From: Terriglobia bacterium
Lineage (GTDB): Bacteria > Acidobacteriota > Terriglobia > Bryobacterales > Bryobacteraceae
Reading direction: 5' to 3'
Assembly: GCA_021324615.1 (NCBI GenBank)
Contig: JAJPIT010000113.1
Coordinates: 62,001-126,000, forward strand
Length of the DNA stretch: 64,000 bases
The notes under the pieces are model-generated. The model was not told the origin of the DNA. It did not search any database and worked only from the letters and a program-made list of their open reading frames with translations. The translations under genes were made by a program, and so were the position numbers. Of the stretch, positions 337-59,531 are shown piece after piece. The first letter of the stretch is position 1. Each line of letters begins with the position of its first letter.

Positions 337-2684
337 CGGAGGATTCCGCTTCTCCCCCGCATGCGTTCGAGTTCCCGGCGGTACGATTCGATGAGTTTCG
401 CCGTCATCGCCCGCATGTCTCGCGTGGCCGCCACGTGGGCACGGGCGCGGCGCGCCAGTTCCGCGGCTTTGTCGGGATGCTGGAGGAGTCCGATCACACG
501 CCCGGCGAATCCCTCCGGATCGTCGGCCAGGGCGCAGATCTCGCCATCTTCCGCCGCCAGGCCTTCGGCGCCGAGCCGGGTGGAGACGACGGGAATTCCG
601 GCGGCGAAAGCCTCCAGCAGCTTCACCCGGACGCCGGATCCGCTGAGAATCGGGCAGACGAATACGGAGTAGCGCGCAAGGGGCTCGCGCACGTCTTCGA
701 CGAAACCGATCAGCTCCACCGCTTCGGAGCCGGGGAGCGAATGCCGCGGCGGAGGATCGCTGCCGATGACCACCAGCCGCGCGCGGGGCTCCGCCGCCCG
801 GATTTTCGGCAGCACGCGCTTTAGGAACCAGTCGAGCGCCTCCACGTTCGGCAGATGCCGGAAGCTGCCCAGAAACAGCATGGTGAACGGCTCGCGGCCG
901 GAGGGGCGGAATTCGTAGCGCGAGGTGTCGATGCCGGCGCGGAATTGCCAGTCGATCCGGCCGCGAAGCTCCGGCAAAAACGATTCCAGGTAATCCGCGT
1001 TTTCCTTGCTGCAAACCTGGACCCGGTCCGGGCGCGTCAGCATGCGCAGCTCGTAGCGGATCGCGCGCAGATACTCCCAGCAGGCCTGGAGCCTTTCGCC
1101 GGGCGATTTGATGAAGGGAAGCCGGCGGGCGATCGATTGGAAGTAGACGTCGTGCTCGAACAGAATGCTGGGGATGCGGCGGAAACGGCCGGCGTACTGG
1201 CCGAGCACGGTGTATTCAAGCTGCAAAACGTCGATCCGCTTCAGGTAGATCTGGCGGTGAATAAGCCAGGCGAGATCGCGGGTGCGGAATTCGCGCACCG
1301 CGTGCGGCTCCGGCGATCCGATCGCCTTTTGCCGGGGCTCGGTTCGAACGACATATTCGACGGAAGCACAGATTTGTTCGAGCTCGGCGTGTGCTTCCTG
1401 CTCGCGCGCGTAATCGAGCAGGACGATCAGATGCAGTTCGCATAAACGGGCCAGCTCGCGCACGGTTTGATACATGAACACGCCGCCGCCATGAGTCGGC
1501 GGGCAGATCGGGTAAGGCGAAACGAAAAGGACGCGCAGCGGTTCGGGATCCAGGCGCGCGAAGGTGTCGCGAAAATGCCCGCCAAGCGGCCGGCGAAAAG
1601 CTTCGGTATCAGAGATGACGGCGAGCGATCGCGCGCGGGCGCGGGAGCGGATCGCCCGCGGGAGCTGGAGTGCGGCGCGCGCGATGGCGGCGAAATTCGA
1701 GCGCTCCGGCGAATCCCCGGCGATCCAACTGACCATCGAGGTCGACCAGATAAAGAAGAAATGGGAAAGCAGCCGCGCCGGTTCATGGATGTTTTTCCAG
1801 GCGAACAAAATGAAGTTTTTTTTGAGGACCGATTGAATATAGGCGTCGCGGAAGCGGCGGCCGATGGTGCCGCGATGCTCGTGATAGACGACGCTCGCCG
1901 GCTGATACAGAACCTTCCAGCCGCGCTTCCAGGCGAGATATCCGAGGTCGGTGTCTTCCAGATAAAAAGGCCGCAGCAGTTCGTCGAAGCCGCCGAGGGA
2001 AAGAAATTTCTTGCGGTCGAAGGCGCAGGACCCGCCGCCTCCATAAAAGCACGGATACGGTTCGGTGATGCCCGGCTCGATGCGGTGCGCCACGCGCAGC
2101 GCGCCCTGCTGCCACCATCCTTCGGTGAGGCCGGTTTCCTCGCGCTTTTTGTTGGGGTCGGAAAAGTAAATCTGGCAGGAGACGGCAAAGACCTGCTCGT
2201 CGGTGAAGCCGGCAAGCAGTGGTTTTAAAAAATCGCGCTCCACCCGCATGTCGCTGTTGAGGAGAACGACGATATCGTGTCGCGCGTGGCGCACGCCTTC
2301 GTTCGCTCCTCCGCCGAAGCCCAGGTTTCGTTCGAGCGCGATCAGCCGCACGGAAGGAAAACGTTCAAGCAGGAATGGCGCGCTGCCATCCGTCGACCCG
2401 TTATCCACGACGATGACTTCGCTGCCCGGGCACTGCTCGGCCGCGGCGAGCACCGAGGGCAGATATTTTTCGAGCAGGTCGCGGCCGATCCAGTTGGGGA
2501 TGACGATGCTGGCCGCGCCGGGGCGGGGAGCGGTGTCGCCGGGCGGGGGCTTGCGGGGAAGCAGACGGAGCAGCAAATCGGAACAAAACAGCGCAATTCC
2601 GCTGAAAATCAGCAAAAAAGGGGTCAAAAACGCGAGTGGTAAATTCTTGACGATGCGCCAGGCGGCCTGCAACGACCGGCGCAT
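333..2684 (-). CDS. Two-domain glycosyltransferase (GT2 plus GT4) with N-terminal membrane segment
   Basis: This 783-residue protein begins with a hydrophobic segment (about residues 16-41). A GT2 domain follows (about 57-340) with the nucleotide-sugar motif DNGSTDG at 94-100, LNSDMR near 142 and an acidic EDTD near 243. From about residue 383 there is a second, GT4-like Rossmann pair with an HGGG glycine turn near the start and the C-terminal SGVRVKLLEAFAAGIPVV donor-binding region. Such double enzymes build repeating surface polysaccharides. The start ATG overlaps the stop of the methyltransferase gene as TAATG, implying translational coupling; longer in-frame extensions upstream read through that gene and were not used. 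Third gene of an operon with an ABC exporter ATPase. Sugar specificity cannot be told from sequence. Confidence 0.88.
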   Translation of the reverse strand: MRRSLQAAWRIVKNLPLAFLTPFLLIFSGIALFCSDLLLRLLPRKPPPGDTAPRPGAASIVIPNWIGRDLLEKYLPSVLAAAEQCPGSEVIVVDNGSTDGSAPFLLERFPSVRLIALERNLGFGGGANEGVRHARHDIVVLLNSDMRVERDFLKPLLAGFTDEQVFAVSCQIYFSDPNKKREETGLTEGWWQQGALRVAHRIEPGITEPYPCFYGGGGSCAFDRKKFLSLGGFDELLRPFYLEDTDLGYLAWKRGWKVLYQPASVVYHEHRGTIGRRFRDAYIQSVLKKNFILFAWKNIHEPARLLSHFFFIWSTSMVSWIAGDSPERSNFAAIARAALQLPRAIRSRARARSLAVISDTEAFRRPLGGHFRDTFARLDPEPLRVLFVSPYPICPPTHGGGVFMYQTVRELARLCELHLIVLLDYAREQEAHAELEQICASVEYVVRTEPRQKAIGSPEPHAVREFRTRDLAWLIHRQIYLKRIDVLQLEYTVLGQYAGRFRRIPSILFEHDVYFQSIARRLPFIKSPGERLQACWEYLRAIRYELRMLTRPDRVQVCSKENADYLESFLPELRGRIDWQFRAGIDTSRYEFRPSGREPFTMLFLGSFRHLPNVEALDWFLKRVLPKIRAAEPRARLVVIGSDPPPRHSLPGSEAVELIGFVEDVREPLARYSVFVCPILSGSGVRVKLLEAFAAGIPVVSTRLGAEGLAAEDGEICALADDPEGFAGRVIGLLQHPDKAAELARRARAHVAATRDMRAMTAKLIESYRRELERMRGRSGILR

Positions 2685-52025: not shown

Positions 52026-52165
52026 GAACTCTGATTCTAGCGGAATTCCGCGCGGCCTGACCAGCGGGTCACTTGCCGTGGGCCCCGGTTACCGCAAGGC
52101 CGCCAGCGATTTGCCGGTTGCGTGGCGCGAGCCGGAGCGCGCCGGCGGGCTATTTCTCGGTCGCG

Positions 52166-54469
52166 ATGCGAACCGCCTGGCGCTTCTACACCCATCACCG
52201 GCCGCTGGCGGCCGCCGCGACTCTTACGGTTGCCGCGGCTCTCGGGCTGGCCGCCGCGCTGGCTTCCGCCGCCCAGGCCATTCTGTTCCGCCCGCTGCCG
52301 GTGGCGCGCGCCGGGGAGATTGTCCGCGTCTTCACGGTATCGGAGGCTCAGCCGCTGGGCCCGGTTTCCTATCCCGATTTTGAGGACTTTCGCGCCTCCG
52401 CGCGCGCCCTTGTTGGAATGGCCGCCCAAAGCCAGGTTCTGCTGGCGGTGGGCAACGCGCCGGCCGAGATGCGGATGGGGCTGGCGGTCACGGTAAACTA
52501 CTTCGATCTGCTCGGAGTGCGCGTGTCGCCCGGCCGCGGCTTCGCCGCCGGGGAAGCGCGCGATGCGGTGGCCGTGCTCGCCTACGATTTCTGGCAGTCG
52601 CGATTCGGGGGCGACGCGCGCGTCATCGGCAAAACCATTCTGCTGCGCGGTGCGCCGTTCACGATCATCGGAGTGGCGCCCAAAGATTTCGGACTGGACC
52701 GCTTCAGCCATGAGGATTTTTACTTCCCGATGGGGGTCTATGCGGTGGGGCTGCTGCCCGGCAGCGGCAACCCGCTTCCGGACCGTTCGCGGCGCTATCT
52801 GAGCGTGTACGCGCGTCTGGCGAACGGCGCGAGCGTTTCCCAGGCGCACGCCGAAATCGCCGCGATCGCCCGGCGCCTTGCAGCGCAGTATCCGGAGGAC
52901 CGCGCCAGGCGCGCCGCGGTTTTGACCGAACTTGCGGCGCGTGTTTCAAAGGATCGGACCCTGCCGGCGCTGGCCGCGCTGCTGGCGGCGTTGGCGGGAC
53001 TCACCACGATGGCCGGATCCGCGAATCTGGCGCTGGTGCTTGTCGCGCGCACCCAAGCCCGCGCCCGGGAGATTTGGATCCGCGCCGCGCTGGGCGCGCC
53101 GCCGGGCCGTCTGCTCCGGGAAACCTTGAGTGAAATCGCCGCGGTCATCGCGGCCGGAGCGGCGCTGGCTGTTCCGATCGCCTATGCCGGTGAGCAGGTT
53201 CTGGCGAAGACGGCGGTTCTGCCCACCGACATTCGCTTTTCCATCGAACCGCAGCTCGATGCGCGTGTGTTTCTGGCGCTCGCCGCCGCCGGCCTTCTGC
53301 CGGCCGCCGCTGGCGCCTGCCTTGGGCCGAGGCGCGCGGCGGGAGGCGGCCGGCATGTCCTGGCGGCGCTGGAGATCGCGCTGGCCACCGCGCTCATCGC
53401 CTGCTCCGCGTCCCTGCGGGGCGGCCTTATGGCGATCACGCGCGCCGATCCAGGCTACCGGACCGGGCATGTTTTGGTTATGGCGCTTGATCCGTCGCAG
53501 GTGGGATTCGGCGAAGCGCGGGCGCGCGCCTTCTACGATCAGGCGCTGGCCCGCGTGCGGGCGATGAGCGGCGTCCGTTCGGCGGAGCTGGCGCTATCGG
53601 TTCCGCTCGGATACACGGCGGCGCAGCGGCAAATCGTGATGGGAGAAGAAACGCTGACGCTGTGGGCAAACATTGTCGGGACCGGATACTTCGATCTGCT
53701 CCATCTGCCGATCGTGGAGGGCCGCGGATTCACCGGCGGCGACTCGATGTCCTCCGCCGCGGTCGCCATCGTCAATCAGGAACTGGCCCGGCGCTGCGGC
53801 CTCGGCTGCGTGTTCCGGATGAACGGGCGCCGGGTGCGGGTGATCGGCGTGGCGCGCACGATCGCCTACTTTTCGCCGAACGAGCCGCCCCGGCCGTATC
53901 TTTACTTGCCGTTTTCGCAGAACTACGCGGCGCGCATGATTCTGCACATCGAAACGGAAGGCGATCCGGCGGCGATGGCGCATGCCGCCGCCGACGAAAT
54001 CCATCGTCTGGATCCCGCACAGCCGATCAGCGAAGTCCGCCCCTTGAGCGGCTACCTTGACCAGGGCGCGATGTTTCCGGCGCGAATCGCGCTGCGCGTG
54101 CTGGGATCGGCGGCGGCCGCTGCGGTGCTGCTGGCGCTCAGCGGCCTGGCGGGCATTGCCGCCCAGGCGGGCGCGCGCCGCCGGCGGGAGATCGCCATTC
54201 GGATTGCTGTGGGGGCGCGGCGGCCCGCGATCCTCCGTCTGCTGGCGGTGGATGGGCTGAAGGCGCTGGTTTCCGGGATTGCCGCAGGCGGGGCGATGGG
54301 CGCGGGCGCGCAGCGGCTGCTCGTCCACCTTCTGCCGGTTCCGTTATCGCCCGCCAGTCCGGCGCTGGCCGCCGGGCTTGTTTTGCTGGCCAGCCTCCCG
54401 GCGTTTCTGATTCCGGCGCAAAAAACCTCCTGGGCCGATCCGGCGGTCCTGCTGCGCCGCGAATCGTGA
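52166..54469 (+). CDS. MacB/FtsX-type orphan permease (ADOP family)
   Basis: 767 residues from the ATG at 52166 (longer frames run into upstream DNA). An N-terminal helix is followed by a MacB periplasmic core (about 50-280, LFRPLPVARAGEIVRVF, FDLLGVRVSPGRGF), then FtsX-like helices, a second periplasmic core near 430-640 (VPLGYTAAQRQIVMGEETL, YFDLLHLPIVEGRGF) and a last FtsX helix set with RRRREIAIRIAVGARR. This duplicated layout without an ATPase gene is the acidobacterial orphan permease type. Function unknown; macrolide or lipoprotein traffic is suggested by MacB only. Confidence 0.88.
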   Translation: MRTAWRFYTHHRPLAAAATLTVAAALGLAAALASAAQAILFRPLPVARAGEIVRVFTVSEAQPLGPVSYPDFEDFRASARALVGMAAQSQVLLAVGNAPAEMRMGLAVTVNYFDLLGVRVSPGRGFAAGEARDAVAVLAYDFWQSRFGGDARVIGKTILLRGAPFTIIGVAPKDFGLDRFSHEDFYFPMGVYAVGLLPGSGNPLPDRSRRYLSVYARLANGASVSQAHAEIAAIARRLAAQYPEDRARRAAVLTELAARVSKDRTLPALAALLAALAGLTTMAGSANLALVLVARTQARAREIWIRAALGAPPGRLLRETLSEIAAVIAAGAALAVPIAYAGEQVLAKTAVLPTDIRFSIEPQLDARVFLALAAAGLLPAAAGACLGPRRAAGGGRHVLAALEIALATALIACSASLRGGLMAITRADPGYRTGHVLVMALDPSQVGFGEARARAFYDQALARVRAMSGVRSAELALSVPLGYTAAQRQIVMGEETLTLWANIVGTGYFDLLHLPIVEGRGFTGGDSMSSAAVAIVNQELARRCGLGCVFRMNGRRVRVIGVARTIAYFSPNEPPRPYLYLPFSQNYAARMILHIETEGDPAAMAHAAADEIHRLDPAQPISEVRPLSGYLDQGAMFPARIALRVLGSAAAAAVLLALSGLAGIAAQAGARRRREIAIRIAVGARRPAILRLLAVDGLKALVSGIAAGGAMGAGAQRLLVHLLPVPLSPASPALAAGLVLLASLPAFLIPAQKTSWADPAVLLRRES

Positions 54470-54580
54470 TTGCGCCGGAAATACCTGTAATTTTCGCTGT
54501 TTTATCAACTTTTTGCCGCTTCCAGACGGCCTGTAGATAACGATTCGCCCGTTATGTTGCGGCCGCAGGGAGGTGCAGTT

Positions 54581-54619
54581 ATGGGAGACCCAATTATCGT
54601 TCTTCCTCCGAGCAATTAA
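54581..54619 (+). CDS. Micro-ORF in the CHAT leader, MGDPIIVLPPSN
   Basis: Twelve codons and a TAA stop, preceded by GGAGG (54569-54573) seven bases before the ATG, the best ribosome site in the region; the same frame can also start 27 bases upstream. The CHAT gene 126 bases downstream has no recognisable ribosome site. The 275-base intergenic region also is AT-richer than surroundings and contains ACCTCC (54695-54700), able to pair with the GGAGGT. A translated leader peptide controlling, or being a substrate of, the CHAT protein is a hypothesis. Confidence 0.4.
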   Translation: MGDPIIVLPPSN

Positions 54620-54744
54620 GATGCAAAACCCGCCGCGCGCGTCCTGGACTTTGCGGCCGCGCGCGGTGGGAATTCGCGCCTGAAGCGCTGGCATACCTCC
54701 TATTTTTCTGGTAATATTTAGCAAAAATAGCAGCGTTACGGCAA

Positions 54745-57147
54745 ATGGCTAGATTTTTCCTATGCCTTTGCTTGGTCCTCACGCTGTGGATAGGCGGCTC
54801 GCGCCAGCCGGCCGCCGTCGGCTCCGGATCGCTGCAACCGGGCGCCTGGTGGGGCACCAGGGAATTCCAGCAATTCGCCAGGCAAGCCGCGCGGTTATGT
54901 GCGGCCGGGGACTACGCCGCGGCCGAATCCCTCTATGAACAGCAACTGCGGATGGCGCGCGAAAAGCGCGATGCGGTGGCAGTCGTCCGGTGTCTTTTGG
55001 GCGTGGGGGGCGTGCGCGTTTGGCGGCGCCATTATCAGGCGGCGCTGGCGTCGCTGGCCGAGGCTCGCCGGCTCGCTCAATCGATCGGCGACCGCCTGGA
55101 TCTGGGCGCGGTCGATATCAACCTTTCGAGCCTCTACCTCCAGATGTGGGATGTGGATGCGGCGCTTTCCGCCGCGGCCGAGGGGGTCGCGGCAAGCCAG
55201 GGGATCGCCAAAACGTATTACCGCCATTCGGCGCTGCTCCAGGCCGGACGCCTGCATCAGGTGCTGGCCGACGGACGCGCCGAGGCGTTCCTGCAAGAGG
55301 GAATCGAAGCCGCGCGCCAGCAGGGCGATCCCGTTCAGGAAGCCGCCGGGTGGGATTATCTGGGCGATGAATGGCGGAGGCGGGAGCAGTTCGCCGATGC
55401 GGAACGCGCTTTTTTGGAGGCGTTTCGAATCCGCGTCTTGTGGGTAAAAAAAGATCTACGCTCCTCCTACGCGCGGCTGGGTGAGTTAAAGCTGGCCGAA
55501 GGCGATCTGCCCGGTGCGGCCCGTCTTACGGATCTGGCGATGCAAGCCGGCCAAAGAGGCCAGTCGATGTTTCCCGAGTATCTGCTGCTTGACCAGCGCG
55601 GCAGGATTCGTCTGGCGCGGGGGGATCGCGCGGGAGCGATCGCCGATTTTCGCGCCGCGGTGGAACAGGCGATCGCCTGGCGGCGCGAGGTGCTGCCGGC
55701 TTCTTCCGTTCTGGCGGCAACCAATTCCGGACTGGAAAAGCGGATTTTCGATTCCTTCGTGGAGACGGCCGCGGAGGAAGCGGTCGCCAAACACCGTCCC
55801 GGGCTAGCGGCGGAGGCGTTCCAGGCGATGGAATGGAACCGGGCGCAAAGCCTCCGCGAAACCGTCGGCTTGGCCGAAGTTTGGCGCAAAAGGCTGCCGC
55901 CGGAGTACTGGCAAACGCTCGGCGATCTGCGCGGCGCCCGGACCGAAGACGCCCGCCGCGATCTGAATTCAAAGCTCACCGAAATGGAAGCCGAAGCGGG
56001 ATTGTCGGGCATTGCAAATCAGAACGAGAATTTTCGGCATCAGACTTCACTTATATCTTTACGACATGGATTAAGTGATTCCGACCTGCTTCTGAGTTTT
56101 CATCTCGGAAGCCAGCGGAGCTATCTCTGGGCGTTGACCCGGCACTCGCTGAATTTGTACGCACTGGCGCCGTCCGCGCGAATTCGTGAGGAAATCGAGG
56201 AGTTTCGGAATGACATCCGCGGTGGCCGCGAGGACGGCCTTTCCGGATCAAATTTGTATCGGGATCTCTTTGGGGCGCTCTCGCCCGCCGAATCGAATCA
56301 GCCGCGCTGGCTGTTGTCGCTCGATGACGCGTTATTTGAAGCGCCGCTTTCCGCATTGCGCACAGAAGGACGCTTTTTGATTGAATCGCACTCATTAACA
56401 ATGATTCCGGGGGCGCTGTGGATGGCGGGCGAGCGGGGAAAAGAAGCGTCCGGCGAATGCCGCCAGGCGTGCGGCTGGTTTCTGGGCGTCAGTGATCCGG
56501 TTTACAACACCGCCGATCCGCGCCGGGCTGCGGCCTTGAGGCTGCCGTGGTTTGCTCAGGCGGCGGACGCTCTGGAGCTGAACCGCCTGGTGGCCAGTGC
56601 GAACGAGGTCGCGGCAAGCGAGCGAAGCTGGGACGCCCCGGGCGACGTGATTCTGAACGGAGTCCAGGCGCGGCGTGGAAACTTTCTGGCGCTTGCCGCC
56701 CGGTCTCCCGCGGTGATCCATCTGGCGACCCATGTTTTGACGCCGGCGGTTGCGCACGCCGGCGCCGAGATCGCCTTCGGCCTGGAGCCTTCCGGCCGGC
56801 TCGGCTATTTGAGTACGGCCGATGTGGGGATGCTCCATGTTCCCGGCGCGGTGGTGGTCATGACCGGGTGCGAGAGCGGAAGCGGCCAAGCGCTGGCGGG
56901 CGCGGGGCTGATCGGCTTGACGCGCGCCTGGCAGGTGGCCGGAGCGTCCGCGGTCGTCTCCACTCTGTGGCCGGTCAAGGACTCCTCCGAAGGTCTGTTC
57001 CCGGGATTTTATCGCCGCTTGAGAAGCCTGCCTGCGGCAGAGGCGCTGCGCCAAAGCCAGGTGGAGATGATCCGGTCCGGCACCTGGCGCGCGCAGCCGC
57101 GCTACTGGGCGGCATATCAGTTAACTGGGGGAAGTTTGGGCAGATGA
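54745..57147 (+). CDS. TPR-CHAT caspase-like protease with signal peptide
   Basis: 800 residues. A hydrophobic start (MARFFLCLCLVLTLWIGG) looks like a signal peptide or anchor. Residues 40-390 form TPR-type helical repeats (GDYAAAESLYEQQLRMA, RREQFADAERAFLEAF). The CHAT domain fills about 445-800: the catalytic dyad is His663 in VIHLATHVLTP and Cys709 in MTGCESGSG, with the usual GLIGLTRAWQVAGASAVVSTLWPV following. Both residues present, so it should be an active peptidase. Bases 55985-56420 are clearly AT-richer with TTA and ATA codons. Its stop overlaps the sigma-factor ATG (ATGA). Confidence 0.92.
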   Translation: MARFFLCLCLVLTLWIGGSRQPAAVGSGSLQPGAWWGTREFQQFARQAARLCAAGDYAAAESLYEQQLRMAREKRDAVAVVRCLLGVGGVRVWRRHYQAALASLAEARRLAQSIGDRLDLGAVDINLSSLYLQMWDVDAALSAAAEGVAASQGIAKTYYRHSALLQAGRLHQVLADGRAEAFLQEGIEAARQQGDPVQEAAGWDYLGDEWRRREQFADAERAFLEAFRIRVLWVKKDLRSSYARLGELKLAEGDLPGAARLTDLAMQAGQRGQSMFPEYLLLDQRGRIRLARGDRAGAIADFRAAVEQAIAWRREVLPASSVLAATNSGLEKRIFDSFVETAAEEAVAKHRPGLAAEAFQAMEWNRAQSLRETVGLAEVWRKRLPPEYWQTLGDLRGARTEDARRDLNSKLTEMEAEAGLSGIANQNENFRHQTSLISLRHGLSDSDLLLSFHLGSQRSYLWALTRHSLNLYALAPSARIREEIEEFRNDIRGGREDGLSGSNLYRDLFGALSPAESNQPRWLLSLDDALFEAPLSALRTEGRFLIESHSLTMIPGALWMAGERGKEASGECRQACGWFLGVSDPVYNTADPRRAAALRLPWFAQAADALELNRLVASANEVAASERSWDAPGDVILNGVQARRGNFLALAARSPAVIHLATHVLTPAVAHAGAEIAFGLEPSGRLGYLSTADVGMLHVPGAVVVMTGCESGSGQALAGAGLIGLTRAWQVAGASAVVSTLWPVKDSSEGLFPGFYRRLRSLPAAEALRQSQVEMIRSGTWRAQPRYWAAYQLTGGSLGR

Positions 57148-57830
57148 GATTCAAGGCGGCGCGCGCCAAAGCCGCGCTTTCCAGCCGGTATAGCCCGCAG
57201 ACGGAGATTGCGGGTGAAACCCAGGCCTATGCGGCCTGGGCGGCGCTGGTGGAACGTATCCGGAGCGGGGAAACCGACGGCATGCGGGAGCTGTACGAGC
57301 TGTTTTCCAAAGGCATCCGCTTTTATCTGTGCCGGCAGCTCGGGCCGCAGGAGCTGGAGGATAAGGTCCACGACACGTTCCTGGTGGTGGTGCAGGCGAT
57401 CCGCCGCGGCGAGCTGCGGGAACCGGAACGATTGATGGGATTTATTCGGACCATCGTGCGCCGCCAGGTGGCCGCGCACATCGATAAGCTGGTGCATGTC
57501 CGGCGCGAGCAGATGGATATGGAGTCCACCGTCCGGATCCCCGACCCATCGGAAAATCCCGAGGAAAGCGCGATTTTCCGGCAGCGCACCCAACTGATCC
57601 ACCGCGTACTCAGCGAGCTGGGCGAGCGGGACCGCGAAATCTTGACGCGCTTCTACCTTCGCGAGCAGGGCCAGGAACAGATCTGTTCCGAAATGGCGTT
57701 GACCGAGACCCAATTCCGGCTCTTGAAATCGCGCGCCAAGGCCCGATTTGGCGAACTGGGTAAGAAAAAGCTGAGTCACCGCGCTTTGAGTACTATTTTT
57801 TTGAGAACTTCTCCTCCGATTTCCCACTAA
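57144..57830 (+). CDS. Sigma-70-family (ECF-like) RNA polymerase sigma factor
   Basis: 228 residues; the ATG at 57144 overlaps the CHAT stop, which decides the start over much longer in-frame extensions. Region 2 is LYELFSKGIRFYLCRQLGPQ, then KVHDTFLVVVQAI and FIRTIVRRQVAAHI; region 4 is VLSELGERDREILTRFYLREQGQEQICSEM with the helix-turn-helix ETQFRLLKSRAKARF. No region 1.1 or 3, so ECF type. The protease in front and the anti-sigma gene 86 bases behind indicate that it is the output of this cassette. Confidence 0.9.
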   Translation: MRFKAARAKAALSSRYSPQTEIAGETQAYAAWAALVERIRSGETDGMRELYELFSKGIRFYLCRQLGPQELEDKVHDTFLVVVQAIRRGELREPERLMGFIRTIVRRQVAAHIDKLVHVRREQMDMESTVRIPDPSENPEESAIFRQRTQLIHRVLSELGERDREILTRFYLREQGQEQICSEMALTETQFRLLKSRAKARFGELGKKKLSHRALSTIFLRTSPPISH

Positions 57831-57843
57831 GAAACTATACGCT

Positions 57844-57885
57844 CCCAGATCGGGATACCCAGATCGGGATACCCAGATCGGGATC
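57844..57885. repeat. Three 14-bp tandem repeats before the anti-sigma gene
   Basis: The unit CCCAGATCGGGATA occurs three times (57844-57857, 57858-57871, 57872-57885, the last with C instead of A at the end). Each unit holds TCCC-AGATC-GGGA, an imperfect inverted repeat. It lies between the sigma stop and the anti-sigma GTG, so may bind a regulator or form RNA structure that sets the sigma/anti-sigma ratio. Confidence 0.85.
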
Positions 57886-57916
57886 GGTTGGTCGGATAGG
57901 GTCTTCGGAGAGTACT

Positions 57917-58519
57917 GTGACAGCGCATCCTGAGTCGGGCGGACATCCGGGGGAGGACACGCTCGAGGAGTACGCGTTTAACCGGCTGGCGGAAGACGAA
58001 GCCGCGCCGCTGGAAGAGCATCTTCTTATCTGTTCGCTCTGCCAGGATCGGCTGGCGGCGGTCGACGAATACATCCGGCTGATGAAGGCGACGGCGAGCC
58101 AGTTTCAAACGAACGCGTCCGGTAAGCCGGCCGAAAATGCACTCGCGCGGGGATTCGGATGGGCGGGATTGGCCGCGGCCTGCTGCCTTGCCGCCGTGTC
58201 TTGGGTGAATCCGCGAAGACCGGCCAAGCAGCCGGCGCAAATCGAGCTGTTCGCCTTCCGGAGCGCGGAGATGGCGCACGCGCCGGCGGGCCGTCCGGTG
58301 AATCTCTCCATCGATGTTTCCGATCTGGCGGCGCCGGCCGGCTACCGGGTGCAGGTGGTGGACTCGGCGGGCCGCCAGGAGTGGAGCGGCGAGGGTGGGG
58401 CGTCCGGCACGACACTGCGGGTCGCGGTCGGGAAAACGCTGGCGCCGGGAGTGCACTGGGTGCGTCTCAGCACCTCCAGCGGCGAGCTGTTGCGCGAATT
58501 CGGCCTGCGGATCGACTAG
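57917..58519 (+). CDS. Membrane anti-sigma factor with zinc-finger (ZAS) N-terminus
   Basis: 200 residues from a GTG with GGAG six bases ahead. The ZAS motif H35-x3-C39-x2-C42 in EEHLLICSLC binds the sigma factor. One helix near 79-96 (GFGWAGLAAACCLAAVSW) crosses the membrane. The C-terminal 100 residues, outside the cell membrane, are beta-rich (VNLSIDVSDL, YRVQVVDSAGRQEW, VHWVRLSTSSGELLREF) and have no family I know. It directly follows the sigma gene. The exported half could be the target of the CHAT protease if the latter is also exported. Confidence 0.85.
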   Translation: MTAHPESGGHPGEDTLEEYAFNRLAEDEAAPLEEHLLICSLCQDRLAAVDEYIRLMKATASQFQTNASGKPAENALARGFGWAGLAAACCLAAVSWVNPRRPAKQPAQIELFAFRSAEMAHAPAGRPVNLSIDVSDLAAPAGYRVQVVDSAGRQEWSGEGGASGTTLRVAVGKTLAPGVHWVRLSTSSGELLREFGLRID

Positions 58520-58559
58520 CGCCAGCGCGGCCCGGCGCAGGACGAGTCCCGCAGAGGCG

Positions 58560-59531
58560 TCACAGGCATATGACGGCCTTGCCCGCGACTTTCCGTTCCG
58601 CCAGATCGCGCAGCCCGCGGGGCGCATCGGCGAGCGAATAAGCCGCTCCGACGCAGGGGCGGATTTCGCCGGCCGCGTACATCTCCAGCAGTGCATCATG
58701 CACCCTGCGCGGATAATCGGGGTGCGACTGCACGTAACCTCCCCATAACACGCCGATAACGGAGATATTTTTGAGCAAAATGCGGTTGGCCGCGATGGAG
58801 GGAATCCGCCCGCCCGCGAATCCTATCACCAGCAGGCGGCCTTCCGGCGCGATGCACTTGGTCGACAGGTCGAAAATATCGCCGCCGACCGGGTCGTAGA
58901 TCGCATCGGCGCCGCCGCCGGTGATCCGCTTCACTTCCTCCACCCAGGACGGGTCCGAATAGTCGAGCACCTGATCGGCGCCTTGCTCAGCCGCGAATCT
59001 GCGTTTGGCCTCGTTTCCCGCGGTGGCGATCACGCGCGCTCCCAGGGCCTTGCCGATTTGAATCGCCGACATTCCCACCCCGCTGGCCCCGGCCTGCACC
59101 AGAAGCCACTCGCCGGACCGCAACACAGTGCGATGCGCCAGCGCGAAATAGGACGTATGGTAGACGATCGGCATGGCCGCGGCTTCCTCGAAGCTCATCT
59201 TTTCCGGGATCGGGAACACCCGGGAGAGCGGCGCGATGGAGTATTCGGCGAATCCGCCGCCCTGCGGCATCGCCGAAACACGATCGCCCGGGCGGAACTG
59301 CTTGACGTCATCGCCTACCGCGTCCACCACGCCCGCAACTTCCGCGCCCGGGGTAAACGGGAACGGCGGCTTCACCTGATATTTTCCCTGGATCTGCAAA
59401 ATGTCGAAAAAATTCAGCGCGGCGGCGCGATTGCGGATGCGAATCTCGCCGCGCCCCGGCTCGGGAACCGGGATTTCCTCCAGTGCCATCGACTCCGGTT
59501 CACCCCAGCCATGTACCCGCCAGCTCTTCAC
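58560..59531 (-). CDS. NADPH:quinone oxidoreductase-like (zinc-free MDR) protein
   Basis: 323 residues of the medium-chain dehydrogenase fold. The cofactor loop is QAGASGVGMSAIQIGKALG; the early FSPGAEVAG region and GDRVSAMPQGGGFAEY are typical of quinone oxidoreductases. No structural or catalytic zinc cysteines are seen. Known role: one- or two-electron reduction of quinones or enones with NADPH. It converges with the anti-sigma gene (40-base gap). Confidence 0.9.
   Translation of the reverse strand: MKSWRVHGWGEPESMALEEIPVPEPGRGEIRIRNRAAALNFFDILQIQGKYQVKPPFPFTPGAEVAGVVDAVGDDVKQFRPGDRVSAMPQGGGFAEYSIAPLSRVFPIPEKMSFEEAAAMPIVYHTSYFALAHRTVLRSGEWLLVQAGASGVGMSAIQIGKALGARVIATAGNEAKRRFAAEQGADQVLDYSDPSWVEEVKRITGGGADAIYDPVGGDIFDLSTKCIAPEGRLLVIGFAGGRIPSIAANRILLKNISVIGVLWGGYVQSHPDYPRRVHDALLEMYAAGEIRPCVGAAYSLADAPRGLRDLAERKVAGKAVICL

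Follow-up and report, generated by a model that had tools for sequence, protein, structure and literature searches.

A conserved TPR-CHAT, sigma and membrane anti-sigma trio in the Bryobacteraceae: joint loss of CHAT and the outer part of the anti-sigma factor suggests an envelope-sensing switch

The window analysed here is a 64-kb stretch of a 3.9-Mb genome assigned to the Bryobacteraceae. It contains adjacent genes for a TPR-CHAT protein, an extracytoplasmic function (ECF) sigma factor and a zinc-finger membrane anti-sigma factor. It was found that this trio is conserved in the Bryobacteraceae (Acidobacteriota, soil bacteria), and the CHAT protein and the outer part of the anti-sigma factor appear to be lost together. 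An exported CHAT protein very probably controls the membrane protein that restrains sigma, and an envelope-sensing switch in which CHAT cuts the anti-sigma factor is, by a modest preference, the explanation we regard as best. At the level of sequence, the case is built from the conservation of the trio, an invariant catalytic dyad, export-like N termini of CHAT, the co-loss, and a tiny open reading frame (ORF) that is linked to CHAT and appears to be under selection. The cutting, the cut site, the signal and the role of the encoded peptide are what we infer.

Conservation was followed by two routes. The CHAT-based scan covered 61 genomes (the window's own and 60 relatives); the CHAT protein was matched in 42, and 30 ortholog loci were read with their flanks. 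The sigma gene lay 3' of CHAT in 29 of the 30, and the anti-sigma gene then followed in 26. Among the four loci without an anti-sigma match, two (L043 and L061) stop at a contig edge, and the genomes of the other two (G036 and G026) carry a full-length anti-sigma gene elsewhere. The second scan used the sigma alignment alone as query on named genomes, which avoided CHAT as the starting point, and 80 of 189 confirmed sigma loci were kept (the named loci). The three-gene order that the earlier note had asked to be sought in other genomes was recovered, with CHAT upstream in 73 of the 80 (one, L079, a remnant) and the anti-sigma gene downstream in 76. When 121 genomes were sampled across the class, sigma was matched at E<=1e-25 in 22, all of the window's family and some of them genomes that the earlier scans had covered. 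CHAT loci in other families of the phylum (n=20) had an anti-sigma-like neighbour of at least 24 bits in 6 and a sigma-like one too in 2, counts that, lacking a background rate, are no more than suggestive. Judged by the sigma protein, the nearest named relatives are metagenome-assembled genomes (MAGs) labelled Terriglobia or Bryobacterales (Acidobacteriota).

Among the named loci, the CHAT ortholog is lost or decayed in seven (L079, L103, L117, L118, L134, L136 and L151). The anti-sigma factor of six of these consists of 70–102 residues of zinc finger without a membrane helix; in L136 a stop lies inside the zinc finger, and there is no outer domain in the frames read. Of the loci that have CHAT and whose anti-sigma gene is readable, 67 of 68 encode a full-length anti-sigma factor (177 aa or more), compared with 0 of the 7 without a CHAT ortholog (Fisher test 4e-9, with L145 left out and uncorrected for kinship). 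In L097 and L129, both full length, the membrane helix scored slightly under the cut, and the 68th locus, L131, has a frame-broken anti-sigma gene whose outer domain is readable in another frame. L145 has a full anti-sigma factor and no CHAT nearby; its CHAT ortholog was found on another contig (692 bits). CHAT was present in 20 of the 22 loci that the class-wide sample yielded; of these 20, 13 have a full-length anti-sigma factor beside sigma, one stops at a contig edge and six have no adjacent anti-sigma gene. The two loci without CHAT (L206 and L208) have anti-sigma factors truncated to 70 and 79 aa, and the CHAT proteins in their genomes are all more distant ones (159 and 254 bits, respectively). 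Where a genome had CHAT but no adjacent anti-sigma gene, a full-length one was found elsewhere in 9 of 9 cases.

On the sigma tree, CHAT loss corresponded to 5 changes (81-row version) or 6 (94-row version), at least 3 of them forced by supported branches, and all independent pairs were concordant for CHAT loss and anti-sigma truncation. In the 94-row version L204 and L206 were dropped after failing the motif check, L131 was scored as full length, and L085 and L137, which are contig ends, were excluded from the anti-sigma trait. The pattern says that the extracytoplasmic part of the anti-sigma factor is retained, in the sequences compared, only where a CHAT ortholog is present. Because the two are lost together, and unlinked partners are found elsewhere in the genome, CHAT and the outer domain would act together, most simply as a periplasmic protease and its substrate.

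The CHAT ORF matched the Pfam CHAT model at E=1e-40 (residues 501–795), and the structure model built from 62 rows had a mean pLDDT (predicted local distance difference test) of 88. His663 and Cys709, which had been read in the window as an intact dyad, were found at those positions and were invariant wherever scorable in three alignments (29/29 rows; 68/68 scorable of 73 rows; 62/62 rows). The signal-like start was also recovered, as the N terminus is signal- or anchor-like: a hydrophobic N-terminal stretch passed a simple threshold in 45 of 62 orthologs, 33 with a positive n-region, while the same threshold was passed by 3 of 62 control segments (CHAT residues 100–160) and 0 of 81 sigma proteins. 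When the open frames were read, several of the 17 misses had a start codon picked too far downstream. By inspection, lipoprotein-like CHAT starts were seen in L072, L073 and L003, the last of which is a second cassette in the window's genome. Because of these signal- and lipoprotein-like N termini, CHAT is very probably located in the periplasm, and since it looks exported it would be able to reach the outer domain of the anti-sigma factor.

The sigma protein matched TIGR02937, the NCBIfam ECF superfamily model, with 55 bits (cut-off 42.9). Its scores against the Pfam region 2 and region 4 models, 17.1 and 24.7 bits, were under the cut-offs, and no PDB chain reached 1e-5 in a search with the sigma profile. 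The ATGA overlap by which the sigma start had been described as coupled to the CHAT end is present in the window, but it is not general, the spacing between matched parts being 0–596 nt in the named loci. Many orthologs share a C-terminal tail of the RTS....H type (near 57790-57827 in the window). The anti-sigma factor scored 15.7 bits against Pfam zf-HC2, under the cut-off. It has the HxxxCxxC motif with an upstream His of zinc-finger anti-sigma (ZAS) proteins such as RsiW and ChrR; H35, C39 and C42 were conserved in 66 of 66 rows and H10 in 65. The best PDB matches of its profile, ChrR (E 0.0025) and RsiW (E 0.022), were both weak. The structure model (66 rows, mean pLDDT 88) predicts cytoplasmic helices, a single membrane helix and an Ig-like domain with its beta-rich part at residues 107–199, in agreement with the earlier description of a ZAS protein with one helix and a beta-rich outer domain; a structure search with the outer domain gave generic Ig/filamin-type matches only (best Z 9.8).

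An unexpected new element, absent from the earlier note, is a tiny gene upstream of CHAT. A recognisable tiny ORF was present in 16 of 30 relative loci, for example MDPIIIIIDLL and MEDPIIVIIPPFWM. By a blind rule (8–24 residues, hydrophobic/proline-rich, with a ribosome-binding site) it was found in 31 of 59 named loci, that of L082 looking spurious; the reverse strand yielded 4 of 59, and shuffles 26 of 1180. The peptide pattern has a single occurrence in the window's own genome. Eight pairs of similar versions gave synonymous and non-synonymous divergences of pS 0.345 and pN 0.063, from which the tiny ORF appears to be under purifying selection, pN being biased low because the pairs were chosen for peptide resemblance.

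A 29-base motif (P1) was derived from 53 upstream regions, some of whose tiny ORFs had been picked by eye, with a log-likelihood of 317 compared with 97–110 in three shuffles; its score in the window is 22.7. Sites scoring at least 12 numbered 37 in CHAT upstream regions and 98 elsewhere in 2.45 Mb, counted on both strands and with the training sites, and nine strong or near sites elsewhere that were inspected showed no coherent gene set. The 12 named loci without a tiny ORF that were scored lack P1, their best scores being 9.5 at most. In the L145 genome, the one in which CHAT and sigma lie apart, CHAT is preceded by the tiny ORF MPDPIIIIFPDSWM, and the strand's best P1 (30.9, not in training) lies about 124 nt before it; upstream of sigma neither a similar tiny ORF nor a P1 site (best 4.5) was found. 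The tiny ORF and P1 thus stay with CHAT, which indicates that the tiny gene belongs to CHAT. A second, extended -10-like element (P2 type) was present in 29 of 61 CHAT upstream regions, compared with 138 of 1220 shuffles. A strict scan of 54460-54800 for sigma-70 promoters and terminators found nothing, and P1 and P2 are therefore known by conservation alone. The stem-loop 3' of the tiny ORF is a putative terminator by position only, with no T run, and no Rfam family reached its gathering score within 54300-58700. In some relatives, e.g. L147 and L137, a TTGCC-N8-GGCAA-type palindrome was seen by eye to overlap the P2-type element; it is a possible repressor site.

We suggest that the micropeptide may be a ligand or inhibitor of CHAT. 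A serious competitor, to which we give somewhat less than even weight and which concerns the tiny ORF only and is compatible with the other readings, is that it is a leader peptide tuning CHAT expression and not a ligand. The position about 60–420 nt upstream of CHAT, the acidic and proline residues often found at the start, the hairpin that follows in the window and the tiny ORF found with CHAT in L175 all fit a leader. However, the P2-type element, where present, lies directly before CHAT with or without a tiny ORF, and the distance between tiny ORF and CHAT is very variable. Rap and NprR are TPR proteins that have Phr and NprX peptides as ligands. Both, in peptide-bound form, are among the TPR proteins listed by VIA-align for the CHAT model, which is a lead only, because TPR arrays match each other readily. 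A four-part switch, in which a hydrophobic micropeptide of ~8–20 residues made from its own promoter would bind the TPR array and thereby gate the anti-sigma cut and sigma release, is a speculative extension that we consider unlikely.

In the proposed mechanism, the zinc finger would hold sigma on the inner side of the membrane while the anti-sigma factor displays its Ig-like domain outside, where the exported TPR-CHAT protein would encounter it in the periplasm. The TPR array would read a signal, possibly with the micropeptide as ligand or inhibitor, and CHAT would then cut the outer part, for which the loop with the invariant Arg115 is a candidate site. The cut would begin the inactivation of the anti-sigma factor and release sigma. 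The core of the earlier idea, that CHAT works with the membrane anti-sigma factor in an extracytoplasmic setting, is supported by the sequence comparisons: CHAT looks exported and the co-loss is as expected. Cutting is the putative mechanism.

Several points weigh against this switch. The cleavage step is derived from sequence comparison, and the co-loss points to a shared pathway and does not establish an enzyme and its substrate. Only 3 independent pairs lie on supported branches, with which a sign test cannot reach 0.05. The absence of CHAT is less certain because the genomes are mostly MAGs, with gaps. Moreover, 6 of 9 CHAT-less genomes keep a distant CHAT protein of at least 150 bits whose match covers much of the profile, and such proteins could substitute for the lost ortholog. 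In 7 CHAT-less genomes, the distant proteins scored 282–325 bits in four and 166 in a fifth, whereas true orthologs (n=3) scored 608–800; the distant proteins were taken as paralogues. The export test was passed by just 45 of 62 rows, partly because starts were chosen by length. Since Glu194 of the anti-sigma factor is as invariant as Arg115, the invariance of the latter may be structural. Of 18 same-genus loci, 12 lack the tiny ORF (4 carry one, and in 2 the upstream sequence is too short), and the peptide is therefore not essential to the switch. P1 is at most a putative promoter for this sigma factor.

The closest known relative by sequence profile is DdvA, which the PDB describes as a transmembrane anti-sigma factor (8rot, 8rw5, 8rlz). 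In the Foldseek search with the CHAT model it came first (E 2.1e-12), near-tied with Csx29 (2.6e-12) and followed by separase; with the CHAT-part profile against the PDB it was again first (8.8e-8), before separase, with the His and Cys aligned and no Csx29 listed. The anti-sigma profile matched the anti-sigma domain of DdvA weakly (E 0.24). DdvA (8rot) was not among the 50 VIA-align 2 matches listed for the CHAT model, the first of which were APPBP2 and Csx29 chains. If the PDB protein is equated with its namesake, an assumption of name identity, the organism is Myxococcus xanthus, where DdvS is reported to act once DdvA is inactivated, the signal for DdvA being given as not known (PMC4374960). 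In both systems an ECF sigma factor would be held by a transmembrane anti-sigma factor with TPR-CHAT involved. DdvA, however, has the anti-sigma and TPR-CHAT parts in a single chain, whereas they are two genes here. In the present loci the anti-sigma factor also carries an Ig-like outer domain of its own, and there is often a micropeptide gene upstream. From the PDB naming and the domain matches, DdvA would thus unite partners that are separate here, and since it is closest by sequence profile, the window system appears to be a split variant of the DdvA type and not a new category. The free-standing version that the earlier note took to be new thus has a precedent in DdvA (PDB 8rot, 8rlz), and CHAT proteins next to ECF54 genes are noted in a review (PMC8999054). 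The literature search found no publication on the DdvA structure and recognised none describing this CHAT/sigma/anti-sigma set.

DdvA also bears on whether CHAT cuts at all. CHAT could act as a sensor instead, binding the outer domain to shield it or pull on it without cutting, any cut being made by another envelope protease; DdvA, in which TPR-CHAT is part of the anti-sigma factor itself, illustrates that CHAT can be sensory, and the co-loss fits binding as well as cutting. But no scorable ortholog departs from the His and Cys, and DdvA retains both, although pure binding would not need them, and we consider this reading rather improbable. Slightly less probable again is that CHAT is a client of the pathway, an operon effector and not a regulator, so that joint loss would mark the decay of an envelope branch. 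Direction is not given by co-loss alone, and CHAT genes are common, 71 of 149 genomes of the phylum having one at E<=1e-20; yet when CHAT is lost, sigma and most zinc fingers stay, and the anti-sigma factor loses exactly its membrane and outside part.

Craspase, the Csx29-Csx30-CASP-sigma system of type III-E CRISPR, is cytoplasmic. The earlier note proposed that the cassette uses the same principle, which came down to analogy only: the logic may be shared, but not the compartment or the activator. Both have a TPR-CHAT protein with a His/Cys dyad; here, in contrast, CHAT is predicted to be exported, and the inhibitor would be a membrane zinc-finger anti-sigma factor. Csx29 is reported to cut the sigma inhibitor Csx30 and to be RNA-activated through Cas7-11 (PMC10028731). 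No adjacent Cas7-11, CRISPR array or Csx30/31 was found within the searched region. A cytoplasmic Craspase-like defence switch, for which the fold match to Csx29 speaks, is most improbable and was rejected, as the CHAT N termini are signal-like, the 64-kb window has no CRISPR-like direct-repeat array, and PADLOC on six window proteins (49–59.5 kb) gave no Cas match, just a weak TPR match.

DegS is a serine protease; in the present system a cysteine protease of the CHAT kind would take that part. The modelled topology is, as in RseA/DegS, compatible with a periplasmic protease meeting the outer domain of the anti-sigma factor; there an envelope protease cuts the membrane anti-sigma factor and frees an RpoE-type sigma (PMC10028731). 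ECF54 sigma genes have CHAT proteins in their neighbourhood, and proteolytic control was proposed (PMC8999054). ECF54 has this CHAT context without an anti-sigma factor, unlike the present loci with their downstream anti-sigma genes. EACC2-caspase systems couple a caspase domain with genes for an ECF sigma factor and a TPR protein (PMC8195603); the architecture differs, and "anti-sigma" is absent from that main text.

Related arrangements were also observed. The second cassette of the window's genome (L003:3064-7826, contig C90) consists of sigma, a membrane anti-sigma factor, a 248-aa protein with no Pfam match and a lipoprotein-like TPR-CHAT protein, and its order of sigma, anti-sigma and CHAT is repeated in L072 and L073. 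At L069:6903-7985 the sigma profile and the anti-sigma profile hit one and the same ORF, which adjoins a CHAT ORF and is possibly a sigma/anti-sigma fusion. No fused zinc finger-TPR-CHAT chain was seen among the CHAT ORFs listed. Contigs labelled Bordetella parapertussis (L091), Acidimicrobiia (L099) and Nevskia soli (L154) also carry the cassette; the labels are otherwise of Acidobacteriota, and these three may be wrong.

The features of the locus are collected in the table. A MacB/FtsX-type permease gene (52073-54469) ends just 5' of it, and 4 of the 30 ortholog loci (L034, L036, L037 and L049) have a relative of this permease in the neighbourhood of CHAT. Between sigma and anti-sigma, a 14-base unit, cagatcgggatacc, was seen by eye to be repeated in tandem about three times at 57843-57884, with an incomplete final copy.

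Table. Features of the CHAT/sigma/anti-sigma locus in window coordinates
Feature	Position	Strand	Basis or detail
P1 promoter-like element, upstream of tiny gene	54487..54515	+	consensus a.t.TaT.tcc.tT.tTtTCAAt.AcTTa; motif search
Tiny-gene ribosome-binding site agggaggtg	54567..54575	+	sequence inspection
Tiny ORF MGDPIIVLPPSN, 12 codons, hydrophobic/proline-rich micropeptide	54581..54619	+	conservation
GC-rich stem-loop 3' of tiny ORF	54628..54671	+	fold of 54510-54745, z -3.07
P2 TGGTAATAT, extended -10-like element before CHAT	54709..54717	+	conservation
TPR-CHAT ORF, 800 aa	54745..57147	+	Pfam CHAT; export-type N terminus
Catalytic codons in CHAT gene	His663 56731-56733; Cys709 56869-56871	+	
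CHAT protein layout	TPR-like helices about residues 39-420; CHAT domain 501-795		
ECF-type sigma ORF, 228 aa	57144..57830	+	TIGR02937 7e-15
Membrane anti-sigma ORF, 200 aa	57917..58519	+	zinc finger H10, H35, C39, C42
Predicted anti-sigma membrane helix, residues 83-97	58163-58207	+	structure model
Predicted anti-sigma Ig-like, beta-rich outer domain, residues 105-200	58229-58516	+	structure model
Anti-sigma invariant Arg115	58259-58261	+	alignment

If the envelope-sensing switch is right, the pairing of a caspase-like protease with a sigma factor would move from a CRISPR curiosity to a design for envelope signalling. The repeated paired loss of the protease and the outer domain indicates a likely substrate ahead of bench work. 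The micropeptide is a possible signal for the exported CHAT protein, and it may help to explain DdvA.

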